Origin: a virus
Length of the DNA stretch: 47,384 bases
IMG/VR virus record: IMGVR_UViG_3300046535_000545
Coordinates: 1-47,384 of that record
Direction: 5' to 3' (one strand)
Each line of letters opens with the position of its first letter. Position 1 is the first letter of the stretch. A program made the position numbers and the translations under genes. The notes beneath the pieces were generated by a model. The model was not told the origin of the DNA. It saw only the letters and a program-made list of their open reading frames with translations, and ran no database searches. Shown here piece after piece: positions 1 through 47,384 of the stretch.

Positions 1-127
1 CTAGCGCAGACCCTTACACGGTGATTGACCTTGACAACCCTTCAAAGGATGCACAGGGCAACGCGCTAAGCGAGGATGAAACCCGCGACATAATAGCGCA
101 GCACAACGAAGCGGTTTCACGCTTTGA
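1..127. repeat. Terminal direct repeat, left copy (assembly overlap)
   Basis: Bases 1-127 are identical to 47258-47384. The length of 127 is a common assembler k-mer size, so this is most simply the overlap left when a circular genome is written linearly. It lies inside one coding region, so it is not a separate genetic element. Confidence 0.95.
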
Positions 128-2135
128 CAGTTACACGGAAATTAGCCCCAGTGGCGTAGGCGCGCATATCTGGCTACGCGGCAAGGTTCCGGCAGGCCGC
201 AGGCGTAACAAGCTCGAAATTTATTCCGATCAACGTTATATGACGGTTACGGGCAACGTCTGGCTTGACAAGCCGATAGCGGAGCGGGCAGAACAGCTTG
301 CACACCTTTATGAGCTTATGGGCGTCTCTACGGTTGCCGTTTACGACGCGAGCGGAGCGCCGCAGTCCGAAGATGATTTGGCGATTTATAACCGCGCCGC
401 CACAGCCGAAAACGGGGCGCACTTCCTCGCGCTCTGGCAAGGCGACTTAACCGGCTACCCGTCGCAGTCGGAAGCAGACCAAGCCCTTACAAATTTGTTG
501 CAGTTCTACAGTAAGAACCGCGACCAAATCAAACGGCTGTTTATGCAGTCGGCTCTAGGCCAGAGGGCTAAGGCTAGCCGCAAGGATTATGTAGACCGCA
601 ACATTACCAAGGCTTTCGACAACGAAACCCCTCCGGTAGACCTAGACCACGCGGCAAATCAGCTTCGGGAAGTCCTCGCACGGAAGGCCGCAGGGGCACT
701 TGTGGGCGCTTCGCAAGAATGGCAGGCCATAGCAGCCCCGGAACCCGAACAGCCCGCCGCTAGCGCCGCGTCTGTGTACGGAGTGCCCCCCGGCCTGCTA
801 GGCGAGATTGCGCAATATATCTATGGAGCGGCCCCGCGCCCGGTTGGCGAAATTGCCTTGACCGGCGCAATCGGTTTCCTTGCTGGCGTGACAGGCCGCG
901 CTTATAATGTCTCTGGCTCTGGCCTTAATCAGTATGTCTTGCTCTTGGCCCCTTCCGGCATTGGCAAAGACGCTATTAGCTCCGGTATCTCTGCGCTCAT
1001 TCAAGCCATGCAAAGGGCGGGCTGTGGCGTAGCCGACGAATATTTAGGCCCGTCCATGCTTCCTTCGGGGCAGGGGCTTATTCGCCATCTTTCAAAGCGC
1101 AAATCGTGCGTTTCAGTTATTGGCGAATTTGGCCTTCGGATGCAGCGAATGATGGTTAAGAACGCCTCTAGCTCTGAAATTGGGCTTAAGCAGTTGCTCT
1201 TAGACCTTTACGGCAAATCAGGCCGCAACGGCGTTCTAGGTTCGTCGGCTTATTCAGATAGCGATAAAAATGTTGCGGCAATTTCGCGCCCCGCTTATTC
1301 GATCATTGGCGAAAGTACGCAGTCAGAGTTTTACAAGTCGATTGACGAAGCGTCTTTTGCGTCTGGACTTATTCCCCGCTTTACGCTTATTGAATACGAA
1401 GGCGAGCGCCCTAACTTCAACCATAACCGCAACTCCCAAGTTTCGGAACGGCTTGCAAAAACGCTAGCCGATATTGGCGCTCATTCAATGATGACAAACG
1501 TTAATGCGGACCCTACCAAAAATTGCATTGACTTCGTTATGTCACCCGAAGCCGAAGCCGTCTTGCAAGCCTTCCTCGCTTACACAGACCAAGAATGGAA
1601 CCGCACGAAAGACGACGCAGGCCACGAGGTTTGGTCTAGGGCTTGGCTCAAAGCCGCGAAGCTTTCCGCCCTCGCTAGCTTCAAGCATGACAACTGGCAG
1701 ACGCCCACAGTGACACTAGAGGCCGCTAAGTGGGCTTGCGCTTTCGTTGACTTTGAAGTGCGCAAGACACTCGAAACGTACCACGGCGGGAAGCTTGGGC
1801 AGGCCGCTACGTTTGATAGCGAACAGCTAGACCATATGCGTAAATCTATCGGTAAATACATTGCAGGCGACGTTAAGCCGGGCGCTTATGAGAATTACCG
1901 TTTATCCGGTTGCGTTACGAAAAGTTGGATAGATCAACGTTGCGCTCCTTATGCGGCTTTCAAAAATGACAGGCTTGGAACTAACGCCGCTATTAAAAAG
2001 ATCATTACGCAGCTTGTAGAGCATGGCGCTTTGAAGCCGCTAAGCGGCGCGCAAGCCGAAAAGCAGTTCAATAGCTCTGCTTTTGCTTACGCTATCGTTA
2101 ACACGAGCTATTTTTTGATGGGAAGGGCACTCTGA
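1..2135 (+). CDS. Primase-helicase, C-terminal part (continues from 47041 across the ends)
   Basis: The reading frame is open from base 1 and joins in frame to the ATG at 47041, giving about 783 residues. The N-terminal part carries a motif typical of NrS-1-like archaeo-eukaryotic primase/polymerase proteins (KKPYNPLTGR, a Trp-Ser-Ser-Phe stretch, then DPYTVIDLDN). The second half resembles DUF3987 helicase-like ATPases: a P-loop (APSGIGKDAI) at about 940-980 and an IGEFG acidic motif near 1115. The residue after the P-loop lysine is Asp rather than Ser/Thr. The likely role is priming and unwinding at phage replication forks. The GTG at 21 is not the true start. The gene is followed by the AT-rich candidate origin. 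Confidence 0.85.
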   Translation, partial: SADPYTVIDLDNPSKDAQGNALSEDETRDIIAQHNEAVSRFDSYTEISPSGVGAHIWLRGKVPAGRRRNKLEIYSDQRYMTVTGNVWLDKPIAERAEQLAHLYELMGVSTVAVYDASGAPQSEDDLAIYNRAATAENGAHFLALWQGDLTGYPSQSEADQALTNLLQFYSKNRDQIKRLFMQSALGQRAKASRKDYVDRNITKAFDNETPPVDLDHAANQLREVLARKAAGALVGASQEWQAIAAPEPEQPAASAASVYGVPPGLLGEIAQYIYGAAPRPVGEIALTGAIGFLAGVTGRAYNVSGSGLNQYVLLLAPSGIGKDAISSGISALIQAMQRAGCGVADEYLGPSMLPSGQGLIRHLSKRKSCVSVIGEFGLRMQRMMVKNASSSEIGLKQLLLDLYGKSGRNGVLGSSAYSDSDKNVAAISRPAYSIIGESTQSEFYKSIDEASFASGLIPRFTLIEYEGERPNFNHNRNSQVSERLAKTLADIGAHSMMTNVNADPTKNCIDFVMSPEAEAVLQAFLAYTDQEWNRTKDDAGHEVWSRAWLKAAKLSALASFKHDNWQTPTVTLEAAKWACAFVDFEVRKTLETYHGGKLGQAATFDSEQLDHMRKSIGKYIAGDVKPGAYENYRLSGCVTKSWIDQRCAPYAAFKNDRLGTNAAIKKIITQLVEHGALKPLSGAQAEKQFNSSAFAYAIVNTSYFLMGRAL

Positions 2136-2340
2136 TTTAAGGCTCTATAAGGCTTAAAAATGGATTTTTAATAGGTTTTCCGGGGCTTTTAGCCATTTAC
2201 GTTTTTAGGATGCTCTAACACACAAAAAGAAAGAAAAACTTAAAAACCTTAAAAACCTTAAAACCCGTTAAAAACATACAAAAACAATTAAAATACATTA
2301 AAAATATATATATGTATATAGTTAGAGTAGAGCTAAGGCT
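2136..2340. other. AT-rich phased A-tract region, candidate replication origin
   Basis: Runs of 4-5 A begin at 2224, 2234, 2242, 2251, 2260, 2270, 2280, 2290 and 2300, an almost exact 10-bp period that is known to bend DNA. They are followed by an alternating TA stretch (2304-2320) that should melt easily. The block is directly downstream of the primase-helicase gene and has no convincing gene on either strand. Bend plus unwinding element is classic origin architecture, but the function is inferred. Confidence 0.6.
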
Positions 2341-2367
2341 AACACTTACGGTAAGAATGGGCTGGCA

Positions 2368-2592
2368 ATGCTGGAATTTACTGAAGTTACATTCTATGAC
2401 AAGACAATAAAAGCTTGGGCATGTCGCGGCGCAATCAATTTGTATATGATACTTTACAGCGCAGAATGTCAGGCGTATTTTGTTCTTGTGCGGGCTTACG
2501 ACAGTAGCGAGCTTGAACAGTTGCCGGTTATGTATAAGACACAAACGCGAGCGGTTAAGGCTGCGTCCGTACACGCAAAGAGGACAGCATGA
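2368..2592 (+). CDS. Small hypothetical protein
   Basis: 74 residues, mixed alpha/beta composition, with no motif I recognise. Its stop overlaps the next start (ATGA at 2589-2592), so the two are translationally coupled. It is the first gene after the candidate origin and opens the rightward accessory operon. Confidence 0.65.
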   Translation: MLEFTEVTFYDKTIKAWACRGAINLYMILYSAECQAYFVLVRAYDSSELEQLPVMYKTQTRAVKAASVHAKRTA

Positions 2593-5119: not shown

Positions 5120-5541
5120 TAACCCCGGAAATGCTAGCCCGTTCGGGCACAGAGGACGCGGAGCAATCTGCGCTATTTTGCTGGCTGGCTCTGCAACGGG
5201 TTCCGGCCATGCGGCTAGCCTTCGCAATCCCGAACGGGGGCAAGCGCGACAAGATAACAGCCGCGAAGCTGAAGGCCACAGGGGTTAAAGCCGGGGTTCC
5301 AGACATTATGCTACCTGTCGCAATGGGCGATTTTCACGGCTTGTTTATCGAGCTAAAGCGGCAAGCTAGCTTTAAGACCGGCAAGCGCGGCGCTCTGATC
5401 ATTGACCGGGCCGCAGGAACCGCTAGCGACGCGCAAGACGGCTGGTTAGACGATTTGCGGGGGCAGGGGTACCGGGTTGCGGTTTGTGAGGGCTGGCTAA
5501 GCGCCGCTCGCGAAATAACCGACTATCTAGACCACGAGTAG
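5116..5541 (+). CDS. VRR-NUC domain nuclease
   Basis: 141 residues, close to a minimal VRR-NUC (PD-(D/E)XK fold). The family pattern is complete: an early acidic helix (EDAEQS, about 13-18), the IPNGGKR turn (38-44), GVPDIML with catalytic Asp63, FIELK with Glu79 and Lys81, and a Gln-containing helix (DAQDGW, about 105-110). Stand-alone phage VRR-NUC proteins are thought to resolve or nick branched DNA. GTG 5116 overlaps the previous stop; ATG 5131 is an alternative. Confidence 0.9.
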   Translation: MITPEMLARSGTEDAEQSALFCWLALQRVPAMRLAFAIPNGGKRDKITAAKLKATGVKAGVPDIMLPVAMGDFHGLFIELKRQASFKTGKRGALIIDRAAGTASDAQDGWLDDLRGQGYRVAVCEGWLSAAREITDYLDHE

Positions 5542-7328: not shown

Positions 7329-7694
7329 AGAACTACCTTCGCGGGTTGGGGCCACGTTCGGAAGGGTTGAAAACCGGGCAAAGCTTCGCCGCTAGCGAAA
7401 ATTGGCCTTTTCGCTTGACTTGTTCGCGAGCTTGAAGGAAAGTCGGGTTGTCTAGGCCCTTGTGACTTTCCCCCGGTTTGCTCCGGTATGCAGCCCGCCC
7501 TCGTGGCGGGTTTTGCTATTCTGGCGTCTGGCGTCTCCTTAACCTTCGCAGCCGACTCGCGCGCATAGCTCGCGCGGGCGCTCTAGCTTGCCTGATTTGC
7601 GGCTTAGCGGCAACCCTGCAAATTTGACGCGGCCCCCTAGGCTTTCGCCCGAATAAGTGCTAAAAATTTAGTGTCAATAGGGAGAGGTTAACAA
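7329..7694. other. Intergenic region between divergent genes
   Basis: 366 bp with no convincing gene. It should hold the promoters for both flanking genes, but none matches the phage's TTGACA-17 consensus cleanly. It contains a terminator-like hairpin (7494-7514), one of the three GANTC sites in the window (7554) and, at 7662-7675, an AT-rich near-palindrome (CTAAAAATTTAG) reminiscent of the 46669-46774 operators. Confidence 0.5.
7494..7514 (+). terminator. Intrinsic terminator
   Basis: CCCGCC (7494-7499), 5-base loop, GGCGGG (7505-7510), TTTT. It sits in a gap with no rightward gene just before it, so it may end a short untranslated RNA. Confidence 0.6.
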
Positions 7695-7940
7695 ATGTTT
7701 ATCATTTTGCCGAATAAGGCCCGCCTAGCTGTTGCCCACATTGTCAGCTACGAACCGCATGGAACAAGCGGGGTTCATATCGAGACGATAGCCGGGGCGA
7801 TAATCCTTGAGAACATTACGGTCGAAAGGCTAGACGCGGCGATAGCCCGAATAAACATCGCCGCAGCGGCCCGCAGCCCTTTGGCCCCAAGCCTTAAGCC
7901 CCCTTGCGATGAACCGCCACATAGGGCCGAACGCCATTAG
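7695..7940 (+). CDS. Small hypothetical protein
   Basis: 81 residues. The first half looks like a small beta-rich domain (IILPNKARLAVAHIVSYE), then an Ala/Ile helix and a Pro-rich tail. GGGAGAGG lies before ATG 7695. Function unknown. Confidence 0.65.
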   Translation: MFIILPNKARLAVAHIVSYEPHGTSGVHIETIAGAIILENITVERLDAAIARINIAAAARSPLAPSLKPPCDEPPHRAERH

Positions 7941-8000
7941 CTAACTGTGGGCAGTCAAAGCCAGCCGCGAAGATAAGAGCAAAAAGTTTGCGGTTGGCTG

Positions 8001-8932: not shown

Positions 8933-9283
8933 ATGGCTACGACCTCTTTCAGCTTCTACGAACTTCCCGTTACGGTTGGCGGTATCGAATGGCTGCTTAC
9001 GGGCGAAGATATTGGCCTGCATTTTGGAGTGCAGAGCGCAGACCCGGAAGTAGGCATAATGGAGGCTTACGCGGAGGACATTTGCATTGATGATGATTCA
9101 ATCGAGCTTGTAGGCTTCTACAGGTTGCCGTCTGGCGAATGGACAGACGAAGAATACAAGCTTGTCCTCGAAAGCGATATGTTTGCTTTCGTGCAAGTCG
9201 AAACCGCCGCATATCGCACAATGGAAGATGCGGCGAACGCTGAAAGCGAAAGGGATAGGGATTATGGCGATTACAACTATTGA
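8933..9283 (+). CDS. Acidic hypothetical protein
   Basis: 116 residues from ATG 8933; an upstream in-frame start at 8867 would fall inside the promoter. Strongly acidic (many Asp/Glu: EDICIDDDSIE, ESERDRDYGDY). Small acidic phage proteins sometimes mimic DNA and block host enzymes; that is only a possibility here. Overlaps the next gene by 20 bases. Confidence 0.65.
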   Translation: MATTSFSFYELPVTVGGIEWLLTGEDIGLHFGVQSADPEVGIMEAYAEDICIDDDSIELVGFYRLPSGEWTDEEYKLVLESDMFAFVQVETAAYRTMEDAANAESERDRDYGDYNY

Positions 9284-11306: not shown

Positions 11307-11879
11307 ATGGAAGCAGCGGCGCATATAGACGACGAACCGGAAACCGTTAACGGGTTCTTTTCGCGCGTACAGCCGCAGCCGTTCGGAACGTTTACGCGCC
11401 ACGCGCGCAACGTTGCTATTGACATTTTTCTAACCGCGCTAGGCGAAGGCGACAAGCCCACAAAAGCAGCCGGTAAAGCTGGCGTTTTTCCTAAGCAGCT
11501 AGAGCTATGGGCTAGCGAACCTACGGACGAAGGCCGGATATTTGCGCTCCAATGGCATCATGCGGAGCAAGCCGTTTTAGAGGAAAAAGAGCGCAAGCTA
11601 GAGGACTACGCGATTAACGGCGTTTGGGAGTATGTGACAACCAAAGACGGCATTGCAACCGAATACGACCCTGTTAAACAAAAGCGGGTTCCGCTTATGG
11701 TTCGCAAGCATGACGGAGCGTTTAAGAAGTTTTGGGCTGAAGCCAACATGCCGGGCAAGTATGGCAAGAGGCTAGCACTCACAGATGCAGCTAGCAAGGC
11801 AAGAGACGTTACGGATTTTACGCAGGAAGTACCGCAAATTGAGCCAGACGAACCCGGCCCCGCGCAACCGTTTCTTTAG
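11307..11879 (+). CDS. Terminase small subunit (probable)
   Basis: 190 residues. The N-terminal third has a helix-turn-helix-like KPTKAAGKAGVFPKQLELWA stretch near 53-72, and the rest is helical and charged. It sits directly before, and overlaps, the large terminase gene, the usual order in tailed phages. Its role would be recognising phage DNA for packaging. Assignment rests mainly on position. Confidence 0.75.
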   Translation: MEAAAHIDDEPETVNGFFSRVQPQPFGTFTRHARNVAIDIFLTALGEGDKPTKAAGKAGVFPKQLELWASEPTDEGRIFALQWHHAEQAVLEEKERKLEDYAINGVWEYVTTKDGIATEYDPVKQKRVPLMVRKHDGAFKKFWAEANMPGKYGKRLALTDAASKARDVTDFTQEVPQIEPDEPGPAQPFL

Positions 11880-13269
11880 TCAACAGGCTAAGCGGGTAAT
11901 CGCGAACGCGCGTCACGGCTTGTCTAAGGCCCGGCGCAAGCCTCTCACGGTTAAGCAGGCGAATATTTACCAGTGGGGCTGGCAACCGGAGGCCCGCTTT
12001 CGCGTCGGGGTTTGTGGGCGGCGCTTCGGGAAAACGTTCCTAGGGACGGAGGAAATTCAACGGGCGTATCGGCTTGCCGTAGAGCAAAACGTACATCCTG
12101 ATAACGAAATTTGGTACGGAGCGCCAAGCTTTAAACAGGCCAAGCGGGTTTTCTGGCGTAGGCTCAAGCGTACTTTTCCTAGGCAATGGGTTGCGGGCAA
12201 GCCGAATGAGACGGATTGCAGCATAACAACCACAACCGGCCATGTTATCCGCATTGTTGGGCTAGATAACTACGAAGATTTGCGCGGCTCTGGCCTGTGG
12301 TTTTTCATTGCCGATGAATGGGCAGACGCGAAACTACTTTGTTGGACGGAAGTTATCCGGCCCATGCTGGCAACGTCTGGCGGTTCCGCACTCTTTATCG
12401 GAACGCCGAAGGGCTTTAACCATTTTTATACGATGTTCCTTGACGGCTGCGGCAAAGTCGCGGGCTGGAAAAGCTTCGTCTATACAACCGTACAGGGCGG
12501 CAATGTTCCGCAAGACGAAATAGACGAAGCTAGGCGGACGCTAGACCCTAAGACGTACCGGCAGGAATGGGAAGCGACCTTTGAAAGCTATAGCGGGCGC
12601 GTCTACTACACTTTTAGCCGTGTGGAGCATGTCGGCACGTTAGCCGAAACGGCGTATGATCCTAACGCGCCTATCCATGTCGGCATGGATTTTAACATTA
12701 ACCCCATGTCGGCTACTGTGTGGCAGGAACGCAACTTGCCGGGCCGCGCAACCCCGCTACTCGTGCAAATTGACGAATTGCTTATCCCAACGTCCGACAC
12801 GGACGAAATGTGCAGAGAGCTTAAAGCCCGCTACGGTAGGCCAAGCTTTGAGCCGGGCGTCTTGAAAGTGGATCACATAAGCGTTTATCCAGACCCGGCA
12901 GGCGTACAGCGTAGGACTTCAGCCGGGGGCCGCACAGACATTTCAATCTTGACCGATGCGGGCTTTAATGTCGTAGCCCTGCGTTCACATCCTCTTGTAC
13001 GCGATAGGATCAGCTTCGTTAACCGCAAGTTCAAGAGCGCAGACGAACAAATCCACGTCAAGATTAGCCCGAAGTGTACGTTTTCGATTGAAAGTTACGA
13101 GCGGCTAGCCTACAAAGAGGGCACGAGCGAACCGGATAAGACTTTGACCTACGAAGGCCGCGACAGCATGACGCTAGACCATATAAGCGACTGCACAGGC
13201 TACTATATCTTTGCGCGCTTCGGGCAAGCTCCGTTGCGTATTGTCGAAAGTACACATTGGGGCAGATGA
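11785..13269 (+). CDS. terL: Terminase large subunit
   Basis: 494 residues. ATPase: Walker A GRRFGKT (78-84), Walker B LWFFIADE (171-178), then a coupling motif in SALFIGTPKGFNHF. Nuclease: VGMDFN (first Asp, about 300), a middle acidic region near SAGGRTDISIL, and a late Asp in LDHISDCTG. This protein pumps DNA into the prohead and cuts it. ATG 11785 gives a 95-base overlap with the small subunit; TTG 11839, 9 bases after AGGAAG, is a plausible alternative start. Confidence 0.95.
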   Translation: MQLARQETLRILRRKYRKLSQTNPAPRNRFFSQQAKRVIANARHGLSKARRKPLTVKQANIYQWGWQPEARFRVGVCGRRFGKTFLGTEEIQRAYRLAVEQNVHPDNEIWYGAPSFKQAKRVFWRRLKRTFPRQWVAGKPNETDCSITTTTGHVIRIVGLDNYEDLRGSGLWFFIADEWADAKLLCWTEVIRPMLATSGGSALFIGTPKGFNHFYTMFLDGCGKVAGWKSFVYTTVQGGNVPQDEIDEARRTLDPKTYRQEWEATFESYSGRVYYTFSRVEHVGTLAETAYDPNAPIHVGMDFNINPMSATVWQERNLPGRATPLLVQIDELLIPTSDTDEMCRELKARYGRPSFEPGVLKVDHISVYPDPAGVQRRTSAGGRTDISILTDAGFNVVALRSHPLVRDRISFVNRKFKSADEQIHVKISPKCTFSIESYERLAYKEGTSEPDKTLTYEGRDSMTLDHISDCTGYYIFARFGQAPLRIVESTHWGR

Positions 13270-19832: not shown

Positions 19833-20873
19833 ATGACAAATCTTTTCTTTGGCGGCGAAGATGTAGACTTCGCCCCTTCCGGCGTAAGCGCGATCACGGT
19901 TAGCACTTCTGCCGGTCTTTTCCGCAGCACGTACGCTAGATGCGGAATTGGCATTACGGGGCAGGCGGTAGCAGACCCGCCCAGTTTTCTATTCGCCCCG
20001 CCCGCGAATTGGTCCGCTTCGGCGTCAAGCTTCTGGGTTCACTTCCAGATGTGTCCCACGATTGCAGGCCCCTCTGTTAATAACAGCACTCTCGCCAATG
20101 CACAGTTCTTGCGCCTACTTGATACGGCGGGCGTTGCCCGCCTACTGATTCGCGGTACAGGAACTAACGGGCAGTTTAAACTTAGTACCCGAAATGCCGC
20201 CGGAACAATTACCGACTTGGTAACTTCCGCCGCTACGGCGTTTCCTGCCGGGCTTGCGCAAGTTGATGTGTTCGTTAATTATGGCACGGTCGGCGAGTTT
20301 AGCGTTTACATTAACTCCGCTCTTGCCGCGCAATATCTTGGCGACATTACGACTAACGCGGGCGGGCAGACTTTCAATAACCATCAATTCGCCGGATGGG
20401 CAACTGCTTCTGCCCCGGTCTGCTATATCTCTGAGTGCCTAGTCGATACGGCAGACACTAGGGCGCAAAGCTTATTCCTCGCCAACTCTAACACGGCGGG
20501 AACTAATCAGGCTTGGACGGGTACAGCTACTAACGTAAACGCAACCACAATTAACGACGCAAATTTCGTGTACTCGCCAACAGCCGCGCAGATACAGGAA
20601 TATAAGCCCGCGTCCTTGCCAGCCGGGGCTTGGGCTATTGTTGGCGTAGGCATGTCGGCCCGTATGCTAGACGGAGCTTCGGGGCCGACTAAGGCAGACT
20701 TCGTAACCCGCATCGCCAGTACGGAGTATCTTTCCGCTGATCGCACGTTAACGGGCAGCTTTACGAATTACGGCAACTATTTGCAGACTGTGAACCCGGC
20801 CACGTCTAGCGCGTGGGCGCTAGCAGACGTTGCGCCTACTAATATGCAATACGGCCTTAAATCAATCACGTAA
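19833..20873 (+). CDS. Virion protein with a possible carbohydrate-binding fold
   Basis: 346 residues, beta-rich, with Trp/Phe-containing strands (SSFWVHFQMCP, VDVFVNYGTVGEFSVYIN) resembling concanavalin-like (LamG) jelly rolls. Follows the fibre-like gene by 12 bases. A role in surface adsorption is plausible but unproven. Confidence 0.55.
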   Translation: MTNLFFGGEDVDFAPSGVSAITVSTSAGLFRSTYARCGIGITGQAVADPPSFLFAPPANWSASASSFWVHFQMCPTIAGPSVNNSTLANAQFLRLLDTAGVARLLIRGTGTNGQFKLSTRNAAGTITDLVTSAATAFPAGLAQVDVFVNYGTVGEFSVYINSALAAQYLGDITTNAGGQTFNNHQFAGWATASAPVCYISECLVDTADTRAQSLFLANSNTAGTNQAWTGTATNVNATTINDANFVYSPTAAQIQEYKPASLPAGAWAIVGVGMSARMLDGASGPTKADFVTRIASTEYLSADRTLTGSFTNYGNYLQTVNPATSSAWALADVAPTNMQYGLKSIT

Positions 20874-21205: not shown

Positions 21206-22732
21206 ATGACTATTTATCGCGGCAACCTCTTGAACACTACGGCGCTGGCTACTCCGGGCCTTTACATCAACGTTATTGCGCCTTCTATTATCAACCTTAA
21301 CGGCGTTCCTACGAATGTCGGCGGTTTTGTTGGCATTGCCTCTTGGGGGCCGGTTAACTCGCCTATTGACGTTGGCTCTATTACTGACTTTCAGGTGAAA
21401 TGCGGAAACCCGATGGCGCGGACCTATGACATTGGTACGCATATCATGGCCGCGACTTGGCAGGGTAACGCAGGCGTCTACAAAGTCGTTCGCGTCACGG
21501 ACGGAACCGATACGAAAGCCTCCGCTACTGTGGGCACTATTGACGGCGTATTTTCGTCGCTGTTCACTGGCATTGGTGGCAACGGCACTACGGTTACTCT
21601 TTACGCCGGGCAGGCCACGGGAACATTCCGCGCGGTTGTCAATCGCCCCGGCAACATGCCGGAAACCTTCGCCAACATTGGCGGCACTGGTAACGCCTTT
21701 TGGCTCAATCTTGCTGCCGCGATCAATAACGGGCAGAATAGCCTTAGCGGCCCCTCCAATCATGTCACCTTCGCGCCGGGCGCGGGCACGGACGCCCCGA
21801 TTGTCGGCACTGTCTACACGCTTGCGGGCGGAACCGATGGAGCTACGACCATAACTGACACAATCGTTATGGGCACGGACGGCGCGACCCGCACAGGCAT
21901 GTACGCCTTGCGCGGCACTCCGGTTAGCGTCGCGGCGCTCTGCGACGTTACGACTGAAAGCACTTTCGCAAACCAAGTTACTTTTGGCTCCGCTGAAGGT
22001 ATTTACATGGTTGGCGTTGGCGCGGTTGGGCAGTCGATTAGCACGGCTGTTAGCTTGCTGCAAACTGGCGGCATTTCGGACCCGGCTTTCGTCTACATCC
22101 TTGGAGATTGGCCCGTTGTCGAAGATAACGTACTTGGCACTATCCGCGTTATTTCGCCGCAGCCGTTTAAGGTTGGCGTCTTGGTCAATCTCAACCCCTC
22201 GGAAAGCTCGCTTAACAAGCCTATTCAGGGCATTGTTTCGACTACGCGCCTTGAAGCCGGGTTGCCCTATTCGGACGCCGATTTGCAGTCGCTTTCACTC
22301 GCTAACATTGACGTTCTCACGAACCCCATTCCTACGGGCAATGTTTTTGGTTTCCGTATCGGGCGCAATTCGTCGCAAAACCCGGTTATTCATGGCGATA
22401 ATTATACTCGCATGACTAACTATCTTGCCGCTACTTTCGAGAAGGGCCTTGGTTGGGCAGTCGGCAGAAAGAACACGCCTAACTTGCGCCAAGATGTTAC
22501 GACTATCCTTGACGCCTTCCTGCAAAACCTCTACGAAAACGAGATGATTGCGGACTGGGATGTTATCTACGACGCCCGCATGAACCCGCAGAGCCAGATT
22601 GCGCTTGGTTATTTGGTTATGACCGTTCAAGTTCAATATCTGTCTATCGTTGAATACTTCGTCTTGAATGTGCAGGGCGGGCAGTCGGTACAGGTTACAG
22701 TTTCGCAGGCCGCTAAGCTCTTGGCTGCTTAA
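21206..22732 (+). CDS. Tail sheath protein
   Basis: 508 residues. Typical contractile-sheath order: N-terminal strand-rich PGLYINVIAPS, GGFVGIASWGPVN, a protruding variable beta domain (about 100-270), and the conserved C-terminal core with GLGWAVGRKNTPNLRQDVTTILDAFLQNLYENEMI and a final beta strand for the sheath mesh. High-expression codons. Defines the phage as a myovirus. Confidence 0.95.
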   Translation: MTIYRGNLLNTTALATPGLYINVIAPSIINLNGVPTNVGGFVGIASWGPVNSPIDVGSITDFQVKCGNPMARTYDIGTHIMAATWQGNAGVYKVVRVTDGTDTKASATVGTIDGVFSSLFTGIGGNGTTVTLYAGQATGTFRAVVNRPGNMPETFANIGGTGNAFWLNLAAAINNGQNSLSGPSNHVTFAPGAGTDAPIVGTVYTLAGGTDGATTITDTIVMGTDGATRTGMYALRGTPVSVAALCDVTTESTFANQVTFGSAEGIYMVGVGAVGQSISTAVSLLQTGGISDPAFVYILGDWPVVEDNVLGTIRVISPQPFKVGVLVNLNPSESSLNKPIQGIVSTTRLEAGLPYSDADLQSLSLANIDVLTNPIPTGNVFGFRIGRNSSQNPVIHGDNYTRMTNYLAATFEKGLGWAVGRKNTPNLRQDVTTILDAFLQNLYENEMIADWDVIYDARMNPQSQIALGYLVMTVQVQYLSIVEYFVLNVQGGQSVQVTVSQAAKLLAA

Positions 22733-35857: not shown

Positions 35858-37900
35858 TTAATCCGCTAAGCCCCAATTCGGCCCCCGGCTTTGGTCTACG
35901 TTAACAGGGATACGCAGCTTTATCGCGCCTTCCATTGTCTCTTTGATAAAGCGGAACGCCTCGCGCGTTTCGGGGCTATCGTCTCTTACGCTAAAATCTA
36001 ATTCATCATGCACGGTAATGCGCGGAACCCCTACCGCATCAAACACGCCAGACCGTAAGCAGGCCCGCATACCTGTCTTGATAATATCCGGCTCCGAACC
36101 TTGGAACTTGTAGTTAACGCCCCTATACTCATACGCTCGCTTGATCTTGGAGCCATAAACCCTAACCGCTTGCTCTAGCGGCAAAGGCGTTGAGCGCCCG
36201 TAGCCGTCTGGCTCAAACAATGGGAACCGGACGCGCCGCCCTAGCAGGGTTCTCACATAACCAAACTCTTGCACTTCGCGCCCGATTGCTGCCATTGTCG
36301 CTTTAACGTAAGGCGCTCCGCTGTGGTAAGACTTGAAAAACTCTTTAGCTTGTTCGCCTGTCAACCCTGCACTATAGGCCAAGCTCTTTTCGGTTTGCCC
36401 GTATAGAAGCCCGAAGTTGACGTTTTTAATCGGGCGGCGCTTCTCTTTGACAACCGCCGCGTCTGTTGCATCCCATCCCATTAGCGGCGCAACGTTATTA
36501 AAAACGTTTAAATGGTAATCCATGTTTTTATCATTGCGGTAGCTTTCGCGCAAACGTTCCGCGCTACCGTCGCCAGCGTCAACCGCGTAATGCGCAAGAA
36601 TACGATAATGGATTTGGCTGTAATCATTCTTTTGCCAGCAAAAATGCCCCGCATCATGCGTAAACGCCTGCCTAACCTTTTTGCCTAACGCCGTGCGGCT
36701 AGGTATATTCTGCAAATTAGGATCGGAGCTAGCAAACCGCCCTACCATAGTTCCGTTTTTGTCGCCTTTCAGCGGGTGAAACTGTGGGAACAACTTACCG
36801 TCTACGCTCTTGTCGATAATGTAAGACTGTAGAAACGTACCGACAATCTTTTCGTGTTCGCGTATATCGTTCACAAGTTCGCCTAAAGGATGCTCAAGAG
36901 CTTTAAGCCATTCCTTTTCAAAGCTTGGATTACCTATTGCGTCCGCGTCTTTTTCTTGCATAGCCCTCGTAGGTTTGGCGCGCGGATAAGTTATGCCCAC
37001 AGTATCAAACAACCTAGCGAGGTTCGCGGTTGAGCAACTTTCGAGCGTAACGCCGTATTCGTGTTTAACTCTGGCGTAGAGGGCCGCAGTTTCGATTGTT
37101 AGCTCGTGCTTCATTTGCTCTGCTTTGGCTACGTCCACCGTAACCCCTTCGCGGCGCATACGCACAAGCAAGGGGATTAGATCGTTCTCAAGCCTGAATA
37201 GCTCTGTAAGTTCTTGTTTAACAAGTTCCGGCCATTGCCTATCAATAATATCGAGCGGTAGGAAAGCATCTGCTTCGGCGTAGGGACCGACAAGGCAAGG
37301 CGGGGCGCGATAAATGTTCGCGCGAGTTTCGCGCTCTGGCGTCGCAGGGTAGGCGCTCCTAAGCCATGCGTAAAGCTCGCTTGTTACCTTGCCTTGGCGT
37401 AGGTACTTATGGGCTAGCACGTCAAGAGCCACTAAGGCGTTTTCGTCAATAAGCGCCTCTGCAAACTGGCAATCGTAGAGGTCGCCATTTACAAAAATGT
37501 TTTCCTCCGCAAGCCAACCACAATCGTAAAGAAGGTTGGCCCCTACCTTCGGGGTAGGGGTTTCAAGCTGTTCCTTGAGCCAGCCTAGCGTCTGGCGTGG
37601 GTCAAGGTTATCTTCGCCGCCTACCTCGTGGCGCAAAGGGAAGTACCAATTACCCCTATTGCCCGTGCGATCTTGGGCCGCTAGAGACACGCCTACAATG
37701 TGCCCCCGGCCCCGCGCCCAACCCGGCCCGGCTGTGGTCAAATCAGGATCAAAGGTTTCTACGTCAAACCCGATAGCTCGCGCCCCCGATAAGTTGGGCA
37801 AGGTTTGCGGCGGTTTCCAACCCGTAACAGGTATGCGCGGCAACTCGCGCAAGCTGGCCTTTTTGCGGAGCGTAAAGGCTTCCTGATTAAAGAGGTTCAA
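35858..37900 (-). CDS. DNA polymerase, family A
   Basis: 680 residues. A 3'-5' exonuclease: DVETF (about 47-51), LLYDCGWL, YAEADAF. Polymerase: GRFASSDPNLQNIPSR; motif A DYSQIHYR (the usual Glu in DYSQIELR is His here); motif B KRRPIKNVNFGLLYGQ with a conserved Phe in the O helix (which disfavours dideoxy incorporation); motif C VHDEL. Replicates the phage genome. Starts by the 67-aa gene at 37904. Confidence 0.95.
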   Translation of the reverse strand: MNLFNQEAFTLRKKASLRELPRIPVTGWKPPQTLPNLSGARAIGFDVETFDPDLTTAGPGWARGRGHIVGVSLAAQDRTGNRGNWYFPLRHEVGGEDNLDPRQTLGWLKEQLETPTPKVGANLLYDCGWLAEENIFVNGDLYDCQFAEALIDENALVALDVLAHKYLRQGKVTSELYAWLRSAYPATPERETRANIYRAPPCLVGPYAEADAFLPLDIIDRQWPELVKQELTELFRLENDLIPLLVRMRREGVTVDVAKAEQMKHELTIETAALYARVKHEYGVTLESCSTANLARLFDTVGITYPRAKPTRAMQEKDADAIGNPSFEKEWLKALEHPLGELVNDIREHEKIVGTFLQSYIIDKSVDGKLFPQFHPLKGDKNGTMVGRFASSDPNLQNIPSRTALGKKVRQAFTHDAGHFCWQKNDYSQIHYRILAHYAVDAGDGSAERLRESYRNDKNMDYHLNVFNNVAPLMGWDATDAAVVKEKRRPIKNVNFGLLYGQTEKSLAYSAGLTGEQAKEFFKSYHSGAPYVKATMAAIGREVQEFGYVRTLLGRRVRFPLFEPDGYGRSTPLPLEQAVRVYGSKIKRAYEYRGVNYKFQGSEPDIIKTGMRACLRSGVFDAVGVPRITVHDELDFSVRDDSPETREAFRFIKETMEGAIKLRIPVNVDQSRGPNWGLAD

Positions 37901-38177: not shown

Positions 38178-39182
38178 CTAATTGCGTACCGTTACCAAAG
38201 CCGCGCGAACGCCAGCCCCACTAAAATACATTATATCTTGCGTCAAATCGGCTTGCGTTACAAGCCCAGTAAGCATCCCCATACGCTTAGCGTTAAAAGC
38301 GGGGCCTTCAGCTAACCCGGAAATTTCGTAGTTAGCCCCTTGTCCTAGGTTGCCGTCCGTCTCTGTCGTAATGCGGCCCTCGCACAGCTTGAGCGTATCG
38401 CGATTAGCGAAAGGCATTAGAGCTTCAATAGCTTCAAAGAACTTAGGCGGCAACGCATCAAACCGGGCCGGTTTTTCCAAAATCAGCCGATAGTTAAGAT
38501 ATTGCTCGCCATAGAGCTTCGTCTTAAACCAAGCGTGGGGGCTAAACCAAAAGGTAACGCTACTTTCGCTGTAGCCGAAGCCCACAAGTGGCCGATTGAT
38601 GCGAAGCAGCGCAGAGACGGAACTTTTCGGCAAGAGCAAGCCGGGCGGCAAATCAACGCCGTGCCAAGCCTCCACCAAAATAACGCTATCCGTCGCCACG
38701 CAAGAGCCAGCCTGAAGCAGCACAGAGCATGTAACGACGCGGGGGGCGCTATCCTGCACAAAGGCCCCTACGACCTTCAGGGCGTCTTTAACCCTATCGT
38801 CTATGACCGCAATACAAGCGTCTGGCGTGACTTCAGGGAACACATCGGCAGGCAGGCATGGAACAACGGCGCGAAAGCCCCCGGAGCGGATTGACAGGCC
38901 GCTAGGCGTCTGCGTAATCGAATGAGAGGCCCCGACGCGGGCCATAGCGGCGGCAAGTTGCGCCCCCTGTGGGCAGGCGCTTAAATCTTCCTCTATGGCG
39001 TGGCCTACCGATTTAATGCCGTCTGTAGCCGTAAGCCAGCCGTCATGCACTTGCACGAACTTCGCAAAATCGTCGCCACCTTCTTTATAAATGCCAGCCG
39101 CGAACTTGAGCGCAGCCGCAAGCGGTATCTTGCCTGTAGCCGGTATTTCGACGGGCTTATCTTTGTTGCGACGCGGAGCCAT
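38178..39182 (-). CDS. DNA sliding clamp-like protein
   Basis: 334 residues, close to a three-domain beta clamp. Clamp-like features: VLLQAGSCVATDSVILVEAW, LLLPKSSVSALLRI, and regularly spaced strand-turn units. A clamp with a family A polymerase would provide processivity. No sequence signature is unique to clamps, so this remains a fold inference. Confidence 0.6.
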   Translation of the reverse strand: MAPRRNKDKPVEIPATGKIPLAAALKFAAGIYKEGGDDFAKFVQVHDGWLTATDGIKSVGHAIEEDLSACPQGAQLAAAMARVGASHSITQTPSGLSIRSGGFRAVVPCLPADVFPEVTPDACIAVIDDRVKDALKVVGAFVQDSAPRVVTCSVLLQAGSCVATDSVILVEAWHGVDLPPGLLLPKSSVSALLRINRPLVGFGYSESSVTFWFSPHAWFKTKLYGEQYLNYRLILEKPARFDALPPKFFEAIEALMPFANRDTLKLCEGRITTETDGNLGQGANYEISGLAEGPAFNAKRMGMLTGLVTQADLTQDIMYFSGAGVRAALVTVRN

Positions 39183-40062: not shown

Positions 40063-41745
40063 TTACATTACTCCAAAATCATAGCCCACGACTTCAGGCC
40101 ATTTTTTGTTAACCCAAACCTTAACCCGCTTAGGCGCTCTTACGTGTGCGATATGCGTTAACGCTTCGTCAACGTTTTTTGGTTCCCAAGCCGTAGGGAA
40201 CCTAACCCGCCACCAATTTAACGCCTTGCTCCTTACCGGGCCTGTATGGTCCAAGCATACATATTCGTTAAACATTTGCAAGCCGCAAAAATAGCTAACC
40301 TTTATCATAGCCGGGCCTGTTGGCGTCCGCTTGCCTTCGGCGTCTTTGACGCTCTTTTGATGCCGGCTATACAGCACTCGAATAATATCGAATGTTTCGA
40401 CCTCTGGCTGGCTGTCTTTAAGCAATTCGTCGCTTGAAGCTCTGGCAACTAGCTTTTCCTGAAACTCAAACGGAGCGCCGCAGACCGCGCAAACTGGAAC
40501 GCGCGTATGGTTGTAGCAGCCGCAGTTTTCGCAGATTTTAACAGGAACTTCGCCCCCGCCCTTTTCGCCCGGCTTTTTCGGGATAACAGGATCATCAACC
40601 GGACCTAACCGCCGTGTGTTAGCTGCGAAGTCTAGCACTAAGCAGTTTTGCTTACCCGTCGCAGGGCTTGGGCGCATACCCCGCCCTATCATTTGAACGT
40701 GCAAGCTCGCGCTCATTGTGGGCCGCAGACCAATAATCAAATCAATAGGCGGGTGATCCTGCCCGGTTGTAAAAATGCCGTTGTTAGTTAAGCATCTATA
40801 TTCGCCGCGCTTAAACGCCGCTATTCTCGCGTCGCGCTCATTGCCTGTAAGCTTTGAGTGTACGCTAACCGCGCTAACCCCAAGGCTCTGCAACATTTCC
40901 GCAACATGGTCCGCATGTTCAATAGACGCACAGAAGGCAAGCCAGCAATTCCGATCATAGCCTAGCTCTAACGCCTCTTTGAGCGCCTTATATGTCACGT
41001 CATGTTTATCAACCGCAGCCGCTAGTTGCGTTGCGTTAAATTCGCCCTGCCTTATGCCCACAGTAGACAAGTCAAGCTCTGTGCTAGTCCTTCGCGGTAT
41101 TGGGGGCATAAGAAAGCCCTCCGCGATGAACCTCGCAAACCATTCCGGCGTTGTGTAGTCGGCTGCAACATGCGTAAACATTGCGGGCTTAGTCACGCCT
41201 TCGATAACAATATCGTCCGTTAATTTGCCCTGCCCCAAGCGCCAGCCGGTAGCCGACAGGCCAACAATACGCAGCCAAGGGTTCACAGCCCTAAGCGCGT
41301 CAATAATCTTGAAATACATAGCCGTTTCGTTCAAGGACACTAAATGAGCTTCGTCAACTATCAAAAGGTCAATACGCCCGAACAGTTCAATCTTTTTAAC
41401 TACGCTGGCAACGCCCCCGAACGTAATAGGCAACGTGTGGTCTTTCTGCCCAAGCCCGGCAGAATAGAAGCCGTATGGAGCGCCCGGCCAAAGAGCCTCT
41501 AGCTTGCTGGCGTTTTGTTCTATTAGCTCTTTGACGTGCGTAAGGATCATAACCCGCTGATTAGGGTAAGACCGAATAACGCGGGCGGCAAACGCAGCTA
41601 TAACAATGGACTTGCCTACGCCTGTCGGCATTAAGCAGAGCGGGTTAGCCGCTTGAGGCGTACCGTCGCGGTTCACGCCATGCTCTGCAAAGAATTGCCA
41701 AAGCTTTTCTTCGGCCTCTAGCTGGTAATAGCGCGGAACTAGCAT
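40063..41745 (-). CDS. SF2 DEAH-box helicase with zinc ribbon
   Basis: 560 residues. Walker A TGVGKS (41-46), DEAH (131-134), motif III-like GLSATG, helicase motif VI QMIGRGMRP (about 350) and a CENC...CAVC zinc ribbon about 405-430. Resembles UvsW/RadD-type recombination helicases. Likely opens branched intermediates or restarts forks. Its start overlaps the 41739 gene. Confidence 0.9.
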   Translation of the reverse strand: MLVPRYYQLEAEEKLWQFFAEHGVNRDGTPQAANPLCLMPTGVGKSIVIAAFAARVIRSYPNQRVMILTHVKELIEQNASKLEALWPGAPYGFYSAGLGQKDHTLPITFGGVASVVKKIELFGRIDLLIVDEAHLVSLNETAMYFKIIDALRAVNPWLRIVGLSATGWRLGQGKLTDDIVIEGVTKPAMFTHVAADYTTPEWFARFIAEGFLMPPIPRRTSTELDLSTVGIRQGEFNATQLAAAVDKHDVTYKALKEALELGYDRNCWLAFCASIEHADHVAEMLQSLGVSAVSVHSKLTGNERDARIAAFKRGEYRCLTNNGIFTTGQDHPPIDLIIGLRPTMSASLHVQMIGRGMRPSPATGKQNCLVLDFAANTRRLGPVDDPVIPKKPGEKGGGEVPVKICENCGCYNHTRVPVCAVCGAPFEFQEKLVARASSDELLKDSQPEVETFDIIRVLYSRHQKSVKDAEGKRTPTGPAMIKVSYFCGLQMFNEYVCLDHTGPVRSKALNWWRVRFPTAWEPKNVDEALTHIAHVRAPKRVKVWVNKKWPEVVGYDFGVM

Positions 41746-41984
41746 TTCGCTGCCTTGACTTTACCAAGCTTAAACACTTTTGCGCATTTTGGGCAGGTTG
41801 CTGTTCTGTCTTTATGGATTACCCAACCCGCTTGCTTAGCGTTCTTATAGGCGTCTTTCTTATCCTCGCAAGAGTAGTTATGCGGAAACTCCGCGTGTTT
41901 GTGTTCTGCGTTCTTGTAGCTGCAATAAAGGTCTAAGCTATACCCTGAAGCTATAAATTGCGGCGATGCTTTGCGGGTAAGCAT
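41739..41984 (-). CDS. Small zinc-binding protein
   Basis: 81 residues. A CPKC pair (C64, C67) near the end, plus C21, C39 and several His, could form a zinc site. Sits between helicase and nuclease. ATG overlaps the nuclease stop. Unknown. Confidence 0.6.
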   Translation of the reverse strand: MLTRKASPQFIASGYSLDLYCSYKNAEHKHAEFPHNYSCEDKKDAYKNAKQAGWVIHKDRTATCPKCAKVFKLGKVKAAKC

Positions 41985-42859
41985 TATCTTATTTCCTTAT
42001 GGTTTTCACAGCCTTTAGCTATAAACTCTTTCGGAATATTTTGCCCGTACACTTCGCAAAACCATTCGGCGTTAGCTACCGGCTTGGCAGAAGCGCAAGA
42101 GCGGCAGTTAATTGCGTAGGGCTTATCGTTGTGGCACTGGCCCGCGAAGTCGCACATTTTGCAAGCATAGTAGGTAGGCGACTGCGACAGCTTTACCGGC
42201 GCTCTAGTGGCCTCTACAATGTCTGTTGCCTTACGTATGGCGTCCTCCGCAACGCGCGGGTCTAGCTGCACAATTTCGACGTGTAAATCATCGTCGTTTT
42301 TGTTCGTGCAGATATAGAGGGCGTATCTATAACCAAGCCCGGCTCCATAGACGCACATTTGCGTGTAATGCACTGGCTTTGCAATCTTAACGCCCTTTTC
42401 GCAAAGCTCCTTAAACTTCGCGCCGGTTCCGCTTGTCTTAAACTCCGAAAGCATTGGAGGAATAGCGAAAGGTATGTCTGCAAAGGCTAAATGGTTTTTG
42501 CCGTCCGTAGAGCCTCCGAAGTGCCCCGCAACGGCGCTAACCCGAAACTGTTTTCCGTTTTCGTCTACGTCGCGAACTTCAGCCCCTATGCCTCGCAAAT
42601 ATTCGTTAAATCTATGTTCCTCTAAATGGCCTCGCTGAAAGAGGCGTTGCATACGCCCGCTATGCACAACGTAGTGAACCCAACGGAACCCGTACCATAT
42701 GGCGCGGTTACATTCGCCGCCAACCATAGAGGCGCCCAAATGCGAGCGCGGCCCGTCATCATAGGCCCTAATGCAATAGGCTTCTATTTCGGTTTTGACG
42801 CGGTAGGTTAGGAGGTTGATTTGCTCGCGCGTTAATTCAGCTTCGGGTAGCATTTGCAA
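41984..42859 (-). CDS. Cas4/RecB-like Fe-S nuclease with extra zinc module
   Basis: 291 residues (TTG 42859, or ATG 42853). PD-(D/E)XK core: H78, D119 (STDG), E139 and K141 (EFK), Q167 (HYTQM). Iron-sulphur cysteines: C50 (GGEC) and C233, C236, C242 (CxxCx5C), the AddB/Cas4 arrangement. Extra tail with C252, C255, C268, C284 (GCENH) matches the 39660 protein. Exonuclease for recombination is likely. There is no Cas1/Cas2 nearby, so it is not part of a CRISPR system. Confidence 0.85.
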   Translation of the reverse strand: MQMLPEAELTREQINLLTYRVKTEIEAYCIRAYDDGPRSHLGASMVGGECNRAIWYGFRWVHYVVHSGRMQRLFQRGHLEEHRFNEYLRGIGAEVRDVDENGKQFRVSAVAGHFGGSTDGKNHLAFADIPFAIPPMLSEFKTSGTGAKFKELCEKGVKIAKPVHYTQMCVYGAGLGYRYALYICTNKNDDDLHVEIVQLDPRVAEDAIRKATDIVEATRAPVKLSQSPTYYACKMCDFAGQCHNDKPYAINCRSCASAKPVANAEWFCEVYGQNIPKEFIAKGCENHKEIR

Positions 42860-44057: not shown

Positions 44058-44774
44058 TTAGCGCGGCCCCCACGGCGGAGCGCCCGCGCCAGCCCCCGGA
44101 GCTTGCTGCCAAGCCGGAGGCGCTCCATTGATAGGAGGGGCAACCGGAGCGGCAGGCGCGGAAGGTTGAGCGCCCCAAGCCGGGGCCGCAGGCGCAACCG
44201 GGGCCTGTTCGGTAGGCTGCGGAGCGCCCCAAGCGGGGGCAGGGGCTACAGGCGCAACCGGAGCGCCCCAAGCCGGGGCCGCAGGCTGCGGAGGCTGAGC
44301 AATCGGAGGGGCCATAGGTGCGGGGGCCTGCGGAGCGGCGAACGCCGGGGGCGGGGCCTGTGTAGCCTTGCCCGGCTCATTTCCGCCCCCGTCAAACACA
44401 CGCTTAACTTCGGTATAACCGCCCGGCTCTTGGCCCTTCTGCAAACCTACTTCGATTTGCAGGCGAGCATTACGAAGCGCCGCAGCTTCGTTGTTAAAAT
44501 CAAGCTTGTAAACGCCGGTAGCGTGGCACAGGGCCGAAAGCTGGCGCTGTGCGATTTCGACGGCTTGCGCCGAAGTCGAAAACAGGTTGTAGCGGTTGAC
44601 GATAACGCCAGCTTGCGTCGTCAATTCAATGGCGAGATACCCGCCGGTATTGTCCTTGTTTGCCTTAATTTCCGTCTTGGAAATGTAGGCCGGGAACTTG
44701 CCCACGGGATGCGTAGGCGTCCCTTGTGTCGGGTCAAACTGTGTAGCATCGAAAGTGCCGTTAAAGCCGCTCAT
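44058..44774 (-). CDS. DUF669-like ssDNA-binding partner protein
   Basis: 238 residues. First about 125 carry the DUF669 pattern (YLAIELTTQAG, VNRYNLF, QLSALCHATGVY), known to sit beside Sak4-type ATPases. The rest is a Pro/Ala/Gly/Trp tail with repeated PAWGAP, resembling disordered tails of SSB proteins that recruit partners. GGAG precedes the ATG. Confidence 0.75.
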   Translation of the reverse strand: MSGFNGTFDATQFDPTQGTPTHPVGKFPAYISKTEIKANKDNTGGYLAIELTTQAGVIVNRYNLFSTSAQAVEIAQRQLSALCHATGVYKLDFNNEAAALRNARLQIEVGLQKGQEPGGYTEVKRVFDGGGNEPGKATQAPPPAFAAPQAPAPMAPPIAQPPQPAAPAWGAPVAPVAPAPAWGAPQPTEQAPVAPAAPAWGAQPSAPAAPVAPPINGAPPAWQQAPGAGAGAPPWGPR

Positions 44775-44814
44775 TTTGTGCGCTCCGAATTTGGGCCGCA
44801 GCCCTTGTTACCGC

Positions 44815-45492
44815 TTACGCGGCGATTTTGGCGAATATGCTAGCCAAATTTGCTTGCTCTAGCGGGTCAAGCGCCCCGCTTCTGTCCTTTGCAACGCTTT
44901 GATTATCAAGCTGCGTTTGTAAGGCGGGGTATTGCTTACCGTCTGCCCCTATGACGGAAATAAGCCGGAAAACTTCGTCAAAGAGATATGGGAGTGAAGG
45001 CCCCATTTTGGAGCCGGGCATGGAAGGCTGAAATAACATTCCGCCGTTAGCGTCGTCTCTGCTAAATTCCTCTTTGCAGGAAAAATAGACGTTACGGCCC
45101 GGCAAATCGCGAAAGTCTTTTACGATGCCTGTTAGCTCCGTTATTAGCGCCCCGTATGCTTGGCGCGGGTCTTTGGTTTTCGCCAATTCAGCCTTAAGCA
45201 CTACTTCGCCTATTTCCGTAATGCTGTCAAGGCATAACGTCTGAAATTGCCTTGCCTCATTCGACTTTTTCGCCCAATCGTAAACTTCGCGGAGCTTCGC
45301 CATTGTCGTAACTTCGATATATGGCAGATTGAGCTTGCGAAGGGATAAAAGGCCCCCTTCGGCTGAAAAGATAATAGGGCTAGGGGCCGTTGCACAAAGG
45401 CGGGTTTTGCCCGCCCCGGCCCTGCCATACGTCAAGACCTTTATTCCCTGCTTAGCAGATAGGCCATTCGTTGATTGAATTTGGATAGCCAT
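44815..45492 (-). CDS. Sak4-like RecA-fold ATPase
   Basis: 225 residues. Walker A GRAGAGKT (23-30), Walker B around FQTLCLDS (about 82-90). Length and the DUF669 neighbour fit Sak4/phage single-strand annealing ATPases. Promotes recombination of phage DNA. Confidence 0.9.
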   Translation of the reverse strand: MAIQIQSTNGLSAKQGIKVLTYGRAGAGKTRLCATAPSPIIFSAEGGLLSLRKLNLPYIEVTTMAKLREVYDWAKKSNEARQFQTLCLDSITEIGEVVLKAELAKTKDPRQAYGALITELTGIVKDFRDLPGRNVYFSCKEEFSRDDANGGMLFQPSMPGSKMGPSLPYLFDEVFRLISVIGADGKQYPALQTQLDNQSVAKDRSGALDPLEQANLASIFAKIAA

Positions 45493-46704: not shown

Positions 46705-46733
46705 TTGCCATGCGCGGCGGGGTACGCCTAGAA
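46705..46733 (+). promoter_or_regulatory. Rightward early promoter (probable)
   Basis: TTGCCA (46705-46710), 17-bp spacer, CTAGAA (46728-46733), or TAGAAC one base later. Precedes the regulator ATG 46762. Confidence 0.5.
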
Positions 46734-46761
46734 CGTGACAACCACAAACGGAAGCTTCGCA

Positions 46762-46995
46762 ATGAAAATTTTAGTACCTAGCAGCCGACTTGCCCCTATA
46801 ACGCAGGAACTTTTACGTAATAGGCCCCAAGGGCTTACGCTCGTTCAAATCGCCAAGGACACGGCTTTAACCCTTGCTTGGCTTCAATATTTTGTCTCTA
46901 CCCCTAAGCGCGACGCAGCCGCTAGCCGCGTTGAAACGCTTTACGAGTATCTTACAAAAACCAAGCTTGATTTGGTTCCGCCCTCCGGTTCGTAA
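46762..46995 (+). CDS. Cro-like helix-turn-helix regulator
   Basis: 77 residues from ATG 46762. The region TLVQIAKDTALTLAWLQYF with VETLYEYL matches compact phage Cro/repressor-type proteins (XRE-like). A third operator (GAAAATTTTAG, 46764-46774) covers its own start, pointing to autorepression. ATG 46762 chosen over an upstream in-frame codon because the start fits the promoter and the ribosome site ACGGAAG. Confidence 0.75.
   Translation: MKILVPSSRLAPITQELLRNRPQGLTLVQIAKDTALTLAWLQYFVSTPKRDAAASRVETLYEYLTKTKLDLVPPSGS
46764..46774. promoter_or_regulatory. Third operator-like site, inverted, over the regulator start codon
   Basis: GAAAATTTTAG is the reverse complement of the CTAAAATTTTC core at 46669 and 46689. 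Binding here would block translation or transcription of the regulator gene. Confidence 0.65.
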
Positions 46996-47040
46996 GCCTG
47001 CAAATCACGCACTTACGGAAAAGCCGGGGGCCAATGTTTA

Positions 47041-47384
47041 ATGCTCAATCTTGACGCTATACCCACAGAGCTAAAGGCGTTTCGCGCTTGGATTGTCTGG
47101 CGTTCCGTTACGGAGCCGGGCACTTTTAAGCCTACGAAAAAGCCTTACAATCCGCTAACCGGGCGCTTGTGCGACCCGACAGACCCTAGCCAATGGTCTA
47201 GCTTCGATATTGCCGCGCAAGTCGCAGCCCGGTATGACGGGCTAGGCTTCTGCCTATCTAGCGCAGACCCTTACACGGTGATTGACCTTGACAACCCTTC
47301 AAAGGATGCACAGGGCAACGCGCTAAGCGAGGATGAAACCCGCGACATAATAGCGCAGCACAACGAAGCGGTTTCACGCTTTGA
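47041..47384 (+). CDS. Primase-helicase, N-terminal part (continues at base 1)
   Basis: From ATG 47041: MLNLDAIPTELKAFRAWIVW..., with KKPYNPLTGR, a DPSQWSS motif, and DPYTVIDLDN reaching the repeated end. NrS-1-like primase head. GGGGG at 47025-47029 is a possible ribosome site, about 11 bases away. Together with 1-2135 the protein is about 783 residues. Confidence 0.85.
   Translation, partial: MLNLDAIPTELKAFRAWIVWRSVTEPGTFKPTKKPYNPLTGRLCDPTDPSQWSSFDIAAQVAARYDGLGFCLSSADPYTVIDLDNPSKDAQGNALSEDETRDIIAQHNEAVSRF
47258..47384. repeat. Terminal direct repeat, right copy (assembly overlap)
   Basis: Identical to 1-127. See the left copy. Confidence 0.95.

Follow-up and report, generated by a model that had tools for sequence, protein, structure and literature searches.

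Why should a phage genome be almost devoid of the pentanucleotide GANTC? This question was raised by the virus record IMGVR_UViG_3300046535_000545 of the IMG/VR database, whose full 47,384 nucleotides were analyzed here as one stretch (hereafter, the window). In alphaproteobacteria, GANTC is methylated by CcrM. An exact scan of the 47,384 bases found GANTC three times, at positions 7554, 9095 and 20147, exactly as listed in an initial annotation of the sequence. The expectation of about 185 sites given there turned out to reflect base composition alone (184 in our calculation); it fell to 97 under a first-order Markov (dinucleotide) model and to 75 under a maximal-order Markov model. When the synonymous codons of 71 predicted genes were shuffled 200 times, keeping every protein and the codon usage, the genes were expected to carry 75.1 ± 6.9 sites (lowest shuffle, 60), as against 2 observed. 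The motif is rarer in the window than under these codon- and protein-preserving nulls, as in restriction-site avoidance. Among the 16 words of the form XYNY'X', GANTC had an observed/expected ratio (O/E) of 0.03, followed by CTNAG at 0.60, and it was the most strongly depleted of all 256 XYNZW words.

The codons themselves indicated how the sites were lost. GANTC arises whenever a serine codon of the TCN type comes directly after a codon for Asp or Glu. After Asp or Glu, serine was encoded once by TCN and 53 times by AGY, whereas after other residues TCN was used 483 times and AGY 293 times (Fisher p = 2e-20). Asp/Glu-Ser dipeptides numbered 54 versus 84 expected. The switch from TCN to AGY therefore indicates that GANTC removal was mainly synonymous, with dipeptide loss contributing a smaller part. 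One might instead attribute the loss entirely to base composition, codon usage or the choice of amino acids, given that dinucleotide use halves the expectation and that Asp/Glu-Ser pairs are somewhat rare. However, such a cause is refuted by the codon-preserving shuffles and by a serine codon choice that flips only after Asp or Glu, and we regard it as virtually impossible.

The loss is shared by a lineage of phages. The family A DNA polymerase of the window, 63-66% identical to those of Sphingomonas phages Kimi and Birtae and of Paracoccus phage vB_PmaS-R3 (R3), served as the marker. A search with four polymerases retrieved 80 contigs from IMG/VR, and 23 relatives with a polymerase identity of at least 51% (the clade) were compared with 30 more distant ones. 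GANTC occurred 19 times versus 1316 expected in the 23 clade members and 1543 times versus 2315 expected in the 30 relatives outside; the O/E was below 0.15 in 23/23 and 0/30, respectively. Of 11 motifs tested, GANTC alone was near zero in all 23 members, whereas GATC, CCWGG, CYCGRG, GGWCC and GGTG varied. Mapped onto the tree of the polymerases, low GANTC required 5 changes, compared with a mean of about 22 when labels were shuffled. Clade members with known hosts are the phages Kimi (1 observed/121 expected), Birtae (8/246) and R3 (0/91), and relatives from Pseudomonas, Stenotrophomonas, Variovorax and Microcystis had GANTC O/E values of 0.66, 0.46, 0.56 and 0.78. GANTC loss follows the phage phylogeny and, as judged from the three members with known hosts, the host class. 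The alphaproteobacterial link proposed in the initial annotation is supported by this GANTC-free polymerase clade with its Sphingomonas and Paracoccus hosts, and by a terminase and a tail sheath that are closest to those of Komagataeibacter phages. The possibility that the head and tail relatives share the loss as a group was rejected, their O/E ranging from 0.20 to 1.02.

One contig inside the clade departs from this pattern. L064 is the nearest polymerase relative of the window (73%), yet it carries 27 GANTC sites versus 61 expected, nearly all of them GAWTC (26/42; GASTC, 1/19). In L064 (positions 1-22034), GAWTC is ordinary and GASTC depleted, as in Pseudomonas phage 73 (GASTC 3/42). The L064 primase is closest to those of Pseudomonas phages, and half of one tail protein to that of a P. 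fluorescens phage. A methylase of its own was rejected as the reason, there being no PF01555 or PF05869 match in the 41-kb record. L064 looks like a gammaproteobacterial phage, and a change of host would explain the exception. As a separate observation, positions 1-12766 of L100, a relative outside the clade, contained 6 GANTC sites versus 71 expected, possibly another separate loss.

GANTC is part of a wide avoidance, as the window genome underwent a broad purge of Type II restriction sites. CCWGG (0/73), CYCGRG (0/42), GRGCYC (0/50) and GGYRCC (3/71) were depleted together, 29 of the 64 six-base palindromes were absent, and all 64 summed to 438 occurrences versus 1010 expected. The median O/E of six-mers was 0.04 for palindromic and 0.93 for non-palindromic words. 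GATC was kept (53/87). The initial annotation had reasoned that equal depletion of unrelated palindromes would refute its reading. Such depletion is seen in part, for CCWGG, CYCGRG, GGYRCC and the 29 absent palindromes; among the XYNY'X' words, only GANTC is so strongly depleted. With dozens of other sites equally empty, ordinary mobile Type II systems with their own methylases might have removed GANTC among many sites, CcrM being irrelevant; 24 to 26 of the 32 six-base palindromes near-absent from the window were near-absent from R3, Kimi and Pseudomonas phage 73 as well. However, GATC, CCWGG, CYCGRG, GGWCC and GGTG vary within the clade while GANTC is near zero in 23/23, its loss ends where the polymerase clade ends, and an HpyAIV-type GANTC nuclease was not found in the sampled alphaproteobacteria (see below). 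We therefore judge this origin distinctly unlikely.

Fifteen kilobases were sampled from each of several alphaproteobacterial phages unrelated to the clade. GANTC was missing from Caulobacter phage Cd1 (0/61), which makes at least two origins of complete loss. Ratios of 0.19 were obtained for PBC5, 0.26 for CRP-901, 0.29 for SIO1 and 0.47 for phiCbK, and T7 gave 1.24 for comparison.

On the host side, genome sets were defined by the class or family of the named seed genomes Tanticharoenia and Paraburkholderia. The RAMA domain of CcrM-type methylases was present in 57 of 60 genomes from the family of Tanticharoenia (Acetobacteraceae), which is a candidate host family of the window. It exceeded the cut-off in 4 of 274 genomes from the class of Paraburkholderia, and 2 of these 4 RAMA genes adjoin a nuclease gene named HpyAIV by NCBIfam; the HpyAIV nuclease model matched 3 of the 274 genomes. 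GANTC is the recognition sequence of the HpyAIV methylase (PMC3936762).

On balance, we lean towards the explanation that GANTC was purged by synonymous change against a putative alphaproteobacterial activity that destroys GANTC left unmethylated by CcrM. GANTC in phage DNA would be costly during infection, and over a long time nearly every site would be lost synonymously. The near-zero count suggests that each individual site is costly, as would be expected of a cutting enzyme, and since an enzyme cutting methylated GANTC would be lethal to the host itself, the likely target would be unmethylated GANTC. CcrM would keep the GANTC sites of the host methylated and thereby provide a standing immunity of the chromosome, so that an activity cutting fully unmethylated GANTC could be carried without a methylase of its own. 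Phage DNA made outside the cell-cycle period of CcrM would be exposed, and any site still present could be cut with lethal effect. By the same route, the lineage may have cleared many ordinary Type II sites, with GANTC as the single target common to all alphaproteobacterial members, and the putative nuclease probably lies outside the HpyAIV family. CcrM is regarded as a pure cell-cycle enzyme. A broader claim, possible but doubtful, is that a nuclease without partner methylase is common in alphaproteobacteria and destroys DNA lacking CcrM methylation, in which case CcrM would additionally label self DNA for an innate defence against phages.

Several points weigh against a methylation-sensing activity of this kind. 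Few of the relatives from IMG/VR have a known host class, and owing to shared ancestry the 23 clade members do not represent 23 independent events. Among the 15-kb samples, O/E values were in the normal range for DSS3phi2 (0.75), the pelagiphages HTVC026P (0.99) and HTVC010P (0.92) and the jumbo phage PAU (1.24); an alphaproteobacterial host alone is therefore not sufficient for GANTC loss. An HpyAIV/HinfI-type nuclease was sought in the hosts, and the HpyAIV nuclease model matched 0 of 385 alphaproteobacteria (the class of Tanticharoenia) and 0 of 300 genomes of its family, this being the one known GANTC nuclease family tested. This absence agrees with the description of CcrM as an orphan methylase in Alphaproteobacteria (PMC3973325). 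The suggestion in the initial annotation that the phage stays undamaged by a GANTC-based system would still fit best, despite the missing HpyAIV nuclease and the orphan status of CcrM. The selection by alphaproteobacterial hosts that it had proposed is borne out in part, as such hosts are not sufficient for the loss and the dozens of other avoided sites had been overlooked.

The cost might also come from CcrM itself, which we consider rather unlikely. GANTC on the many phage copies would then be methylated, titrate CcrM, or recruit GcrA and RNA polymerase, so that phage expression is harmed or the host stalled. Almost all members of the host group have CcrM, which is essential or regulatory, and no GANTC nuclease of the tested HpyAIV family was found. 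Methylated GANTC affects transcription, and GANTC is at least two-fold under-represented in alphaproteobacterial chromosomes too (PMC3973325). However, a regulatory cost would be expected at promoters, yet coding GANTC was lost as well (2 vs 75). The titration cost of the last sites would be tiny, a poor fit to the 0-3 residual sites, and many alphaproteobacterial phages tolerate normal GANTC. A methyl-directed repair nuclease that nicks GANTC lacking the methyl group, by analogy with the counter-selection of GATC through MutH proposed for phages of enterobacteria, has its parallel in phiX174, which is without GATC, the Dam site (PMC5014478), and in T7, where GATC stands at 4/53 in a Dam-bearing host. 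In these cases, too, the phage lacks the site recognized by an orphan adenine methylase (Dam) of its host. In contrast to them, where MutH is the known methyl-reading nuclease, none is known for CcrM and GANTC. Caulobacter lacks MutH and does not need CcrM for mismatch repair (PMC3973325), which makes mismatch repair an unlikely agent and the whole proposal very improbable.

The window is a strong further case of the GANTC depletion already reported, without an explanation, for pelagiphages of SAR11, of which about half of 33 genomes were depleted, grouped by phylogeny, with no host restriction system found (PMC9516812). Both cases combine CcrM-type hosts, near absence of GANTC, clustering by phage phylogeny and no known nuclease. 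They differ in that the phages and hosts are unrelated, the polymerase clade here being linked to Sphingomonas and Paracoccus phages, and in that the loss was demonstrated here against codon-preserving nulls and is tied to many other lost sites. The genome-wide removal of palindromes resembles that in lytic phages avoiding Type II sites, such as T7 and the Septimatrevirus phage 73. Phage 73 lacks or nearly lacks 26 of the palindromes near-absent from the window, but it keeps GAWTC (83/88) and is entirely without GATC, which the window keeps. GANTC loss is now seen again in another phage clade and in Cd1, a Caulobacter phage unrelated to that clade, while the known GANTC nuclease family was not found in the sampled hosts. 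This makes a testable question of which alphaproteobacterial factor penalizes GANTC in DNA that enters the cell. The answer could give CcrM a defensive role, and GANTC content may hint at the host class of uncultured phages.

Alphaproteobacterial phages often carry GANTC methylases, and Ochrobactrum phage vB_OspM_OC, with its own GANTC methylase, reaches the same protection for the same motif and host class by another route (PMC7139368). The window, unlike vB_OspM_OC, has no recognizable methylase, its sites being removed instead. Pfam and PHROGs scans of about 30 of the larger window proteins, with short open reading frames (ORFs) only partly scanned, revealed neither an integrase nor a DNA methylase, and tblastn of the window with CcrM-type, Dam and 7-deazaguanine (Que/FolE/TGT) queries gave no match. 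Protection by a phage-encoded CcrM-like or Dam-like methylase or by 7-deazaguanine modification was rejected, since neither the profile scans nor tblastn gave any sign of it.

Some phages whose replication block is of this type do carry 7-deazaguanine (Que/FolE/TGT) genes, namely those of Stenotrophomonas, Variovorax and Microcystis (L045, L046 and L047). Their six-mer palindrome O/E was 0.81-0.88, compared with 0.25-0.60 in relatives without these genes. DNA modification and site removal look like alternatives.

The features of the window are compiled in Table 1. With identical ends of 127 bases, the contig is probably a complete genome that can be drawn as a circle of 47,257 bp. The 5' part of the primase/helicase gene would then cross the joint, starting near 47041 on the circle and encoding about 783 amino acids. 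By homology, the genome is a mosaic in which the head and contractile tail genes and the replication block have different relatives. The former are akin to Komagataeibacter phages phiKX1/phiKX2 and to diverse prophages, whereas the latter (family A polymerase, clamp, helicase, Cas4 exonuclease, single-stranded DNA-binding protein, Sak4 and primase) has the gene order of Septimatrevirus-like lytic phages. Prophage relatives were only distant head and tail ones, in Paraburkholderia, a Moraxellaceae metagenome-assembled genome and Tanticharoenia. No near-identical phage record was found for the first 25 kb of the window, the part compared. A cyanobacterial host, first guessed from the broad palindrome loss, was dropped after the homology searches. 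The window is best explained as a lytic-type contractile-tailed phage with a predicted alphaproteobacterial host.

Table 1 Features of the 47,384-nucleotide window
Feature	Position	Strand	Evidence and remarks
Direct terminal repeat	1..127	+	Repeat search; identical to 47258-47384
Primase/helicase	21..2135	+	phrog_3022, E 3e-175; circular ORF
Residual GANTC (GACTC)	7554..7558		Exact scan; intergenic
Residual GANTC (GATTC)	9095..9099		Exact scan; within ORF 8933-9283
Large terminase	11785..13269	+	phrog_2; 56% to Komagataeibacter phage phiKX2
Residual GANTC (GATTC)	20147..20151		Exact scan; within ORF 19833-20873 (phrog_6368)
Contractile tail sheath	21206..22732	+	phrog_23; 35% to Komagataeibacter phages phiKX1/phiKX2
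Family A DNA polymerase	35858..37900	-	PF00476; marker for GANTC-free clade
DNA polymerase processivity factor	38178..39182	-	phrog_947
Superfamily II helicase	40063..41745	-	phrog_16, ResIII/Helicase_C
Cas4-domain exonuclease	41984..42853	-	phrog_1990, E 1e-94
Single-stranded DNA-binding protein and Sak4-like annealing ATPase	44058..45492	-	phrog_6015, phrog_124
Direct terminal repeat, second copy	47258..47384	+	Repeat search

The gene at 6753-7355, on the minus strand among plus-strand neighbors, encodes a helix-turn-helix protein that weakly resembles initiators of phage replication. Next to it, genes are sparse from about 7356 to 8056, and one of the three GANTC sites falls in this region.

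Further words deviated in the window. The non-palindromic GGTG/CACC was strongly depleted (34 vs 263; 31 vs 200 under synonymous shuffling), possibly owing to a Type IIS, IIG or III system or to a CRISPR protospacer-adjacent motif. The word was near normal in most clade members (pooled O/E 0.85) and partly low in L048 (26/82), L061 (27/57) and a few others. Synonymous shuffling also marked three other non-palindromic words, CCCAG (6/70), CTCAG (4/53) and GAAGA (22/88), as low. While other six-base palindromes were wiped out, GCTAGC (47/27), AAGCTT (53/26), GTTAAC (34/13) and AACGTT (33/16) were in excess. The protein encoded at 5128-5529 is a weak homolog (37%, E 8e-11) of an R3 protein annotated as a Vsr endonuclease; a homolog is also present in Kimi, Birtae and Pseudomonas phage 73, and these phages, R3 and the window are all without CCWGG.

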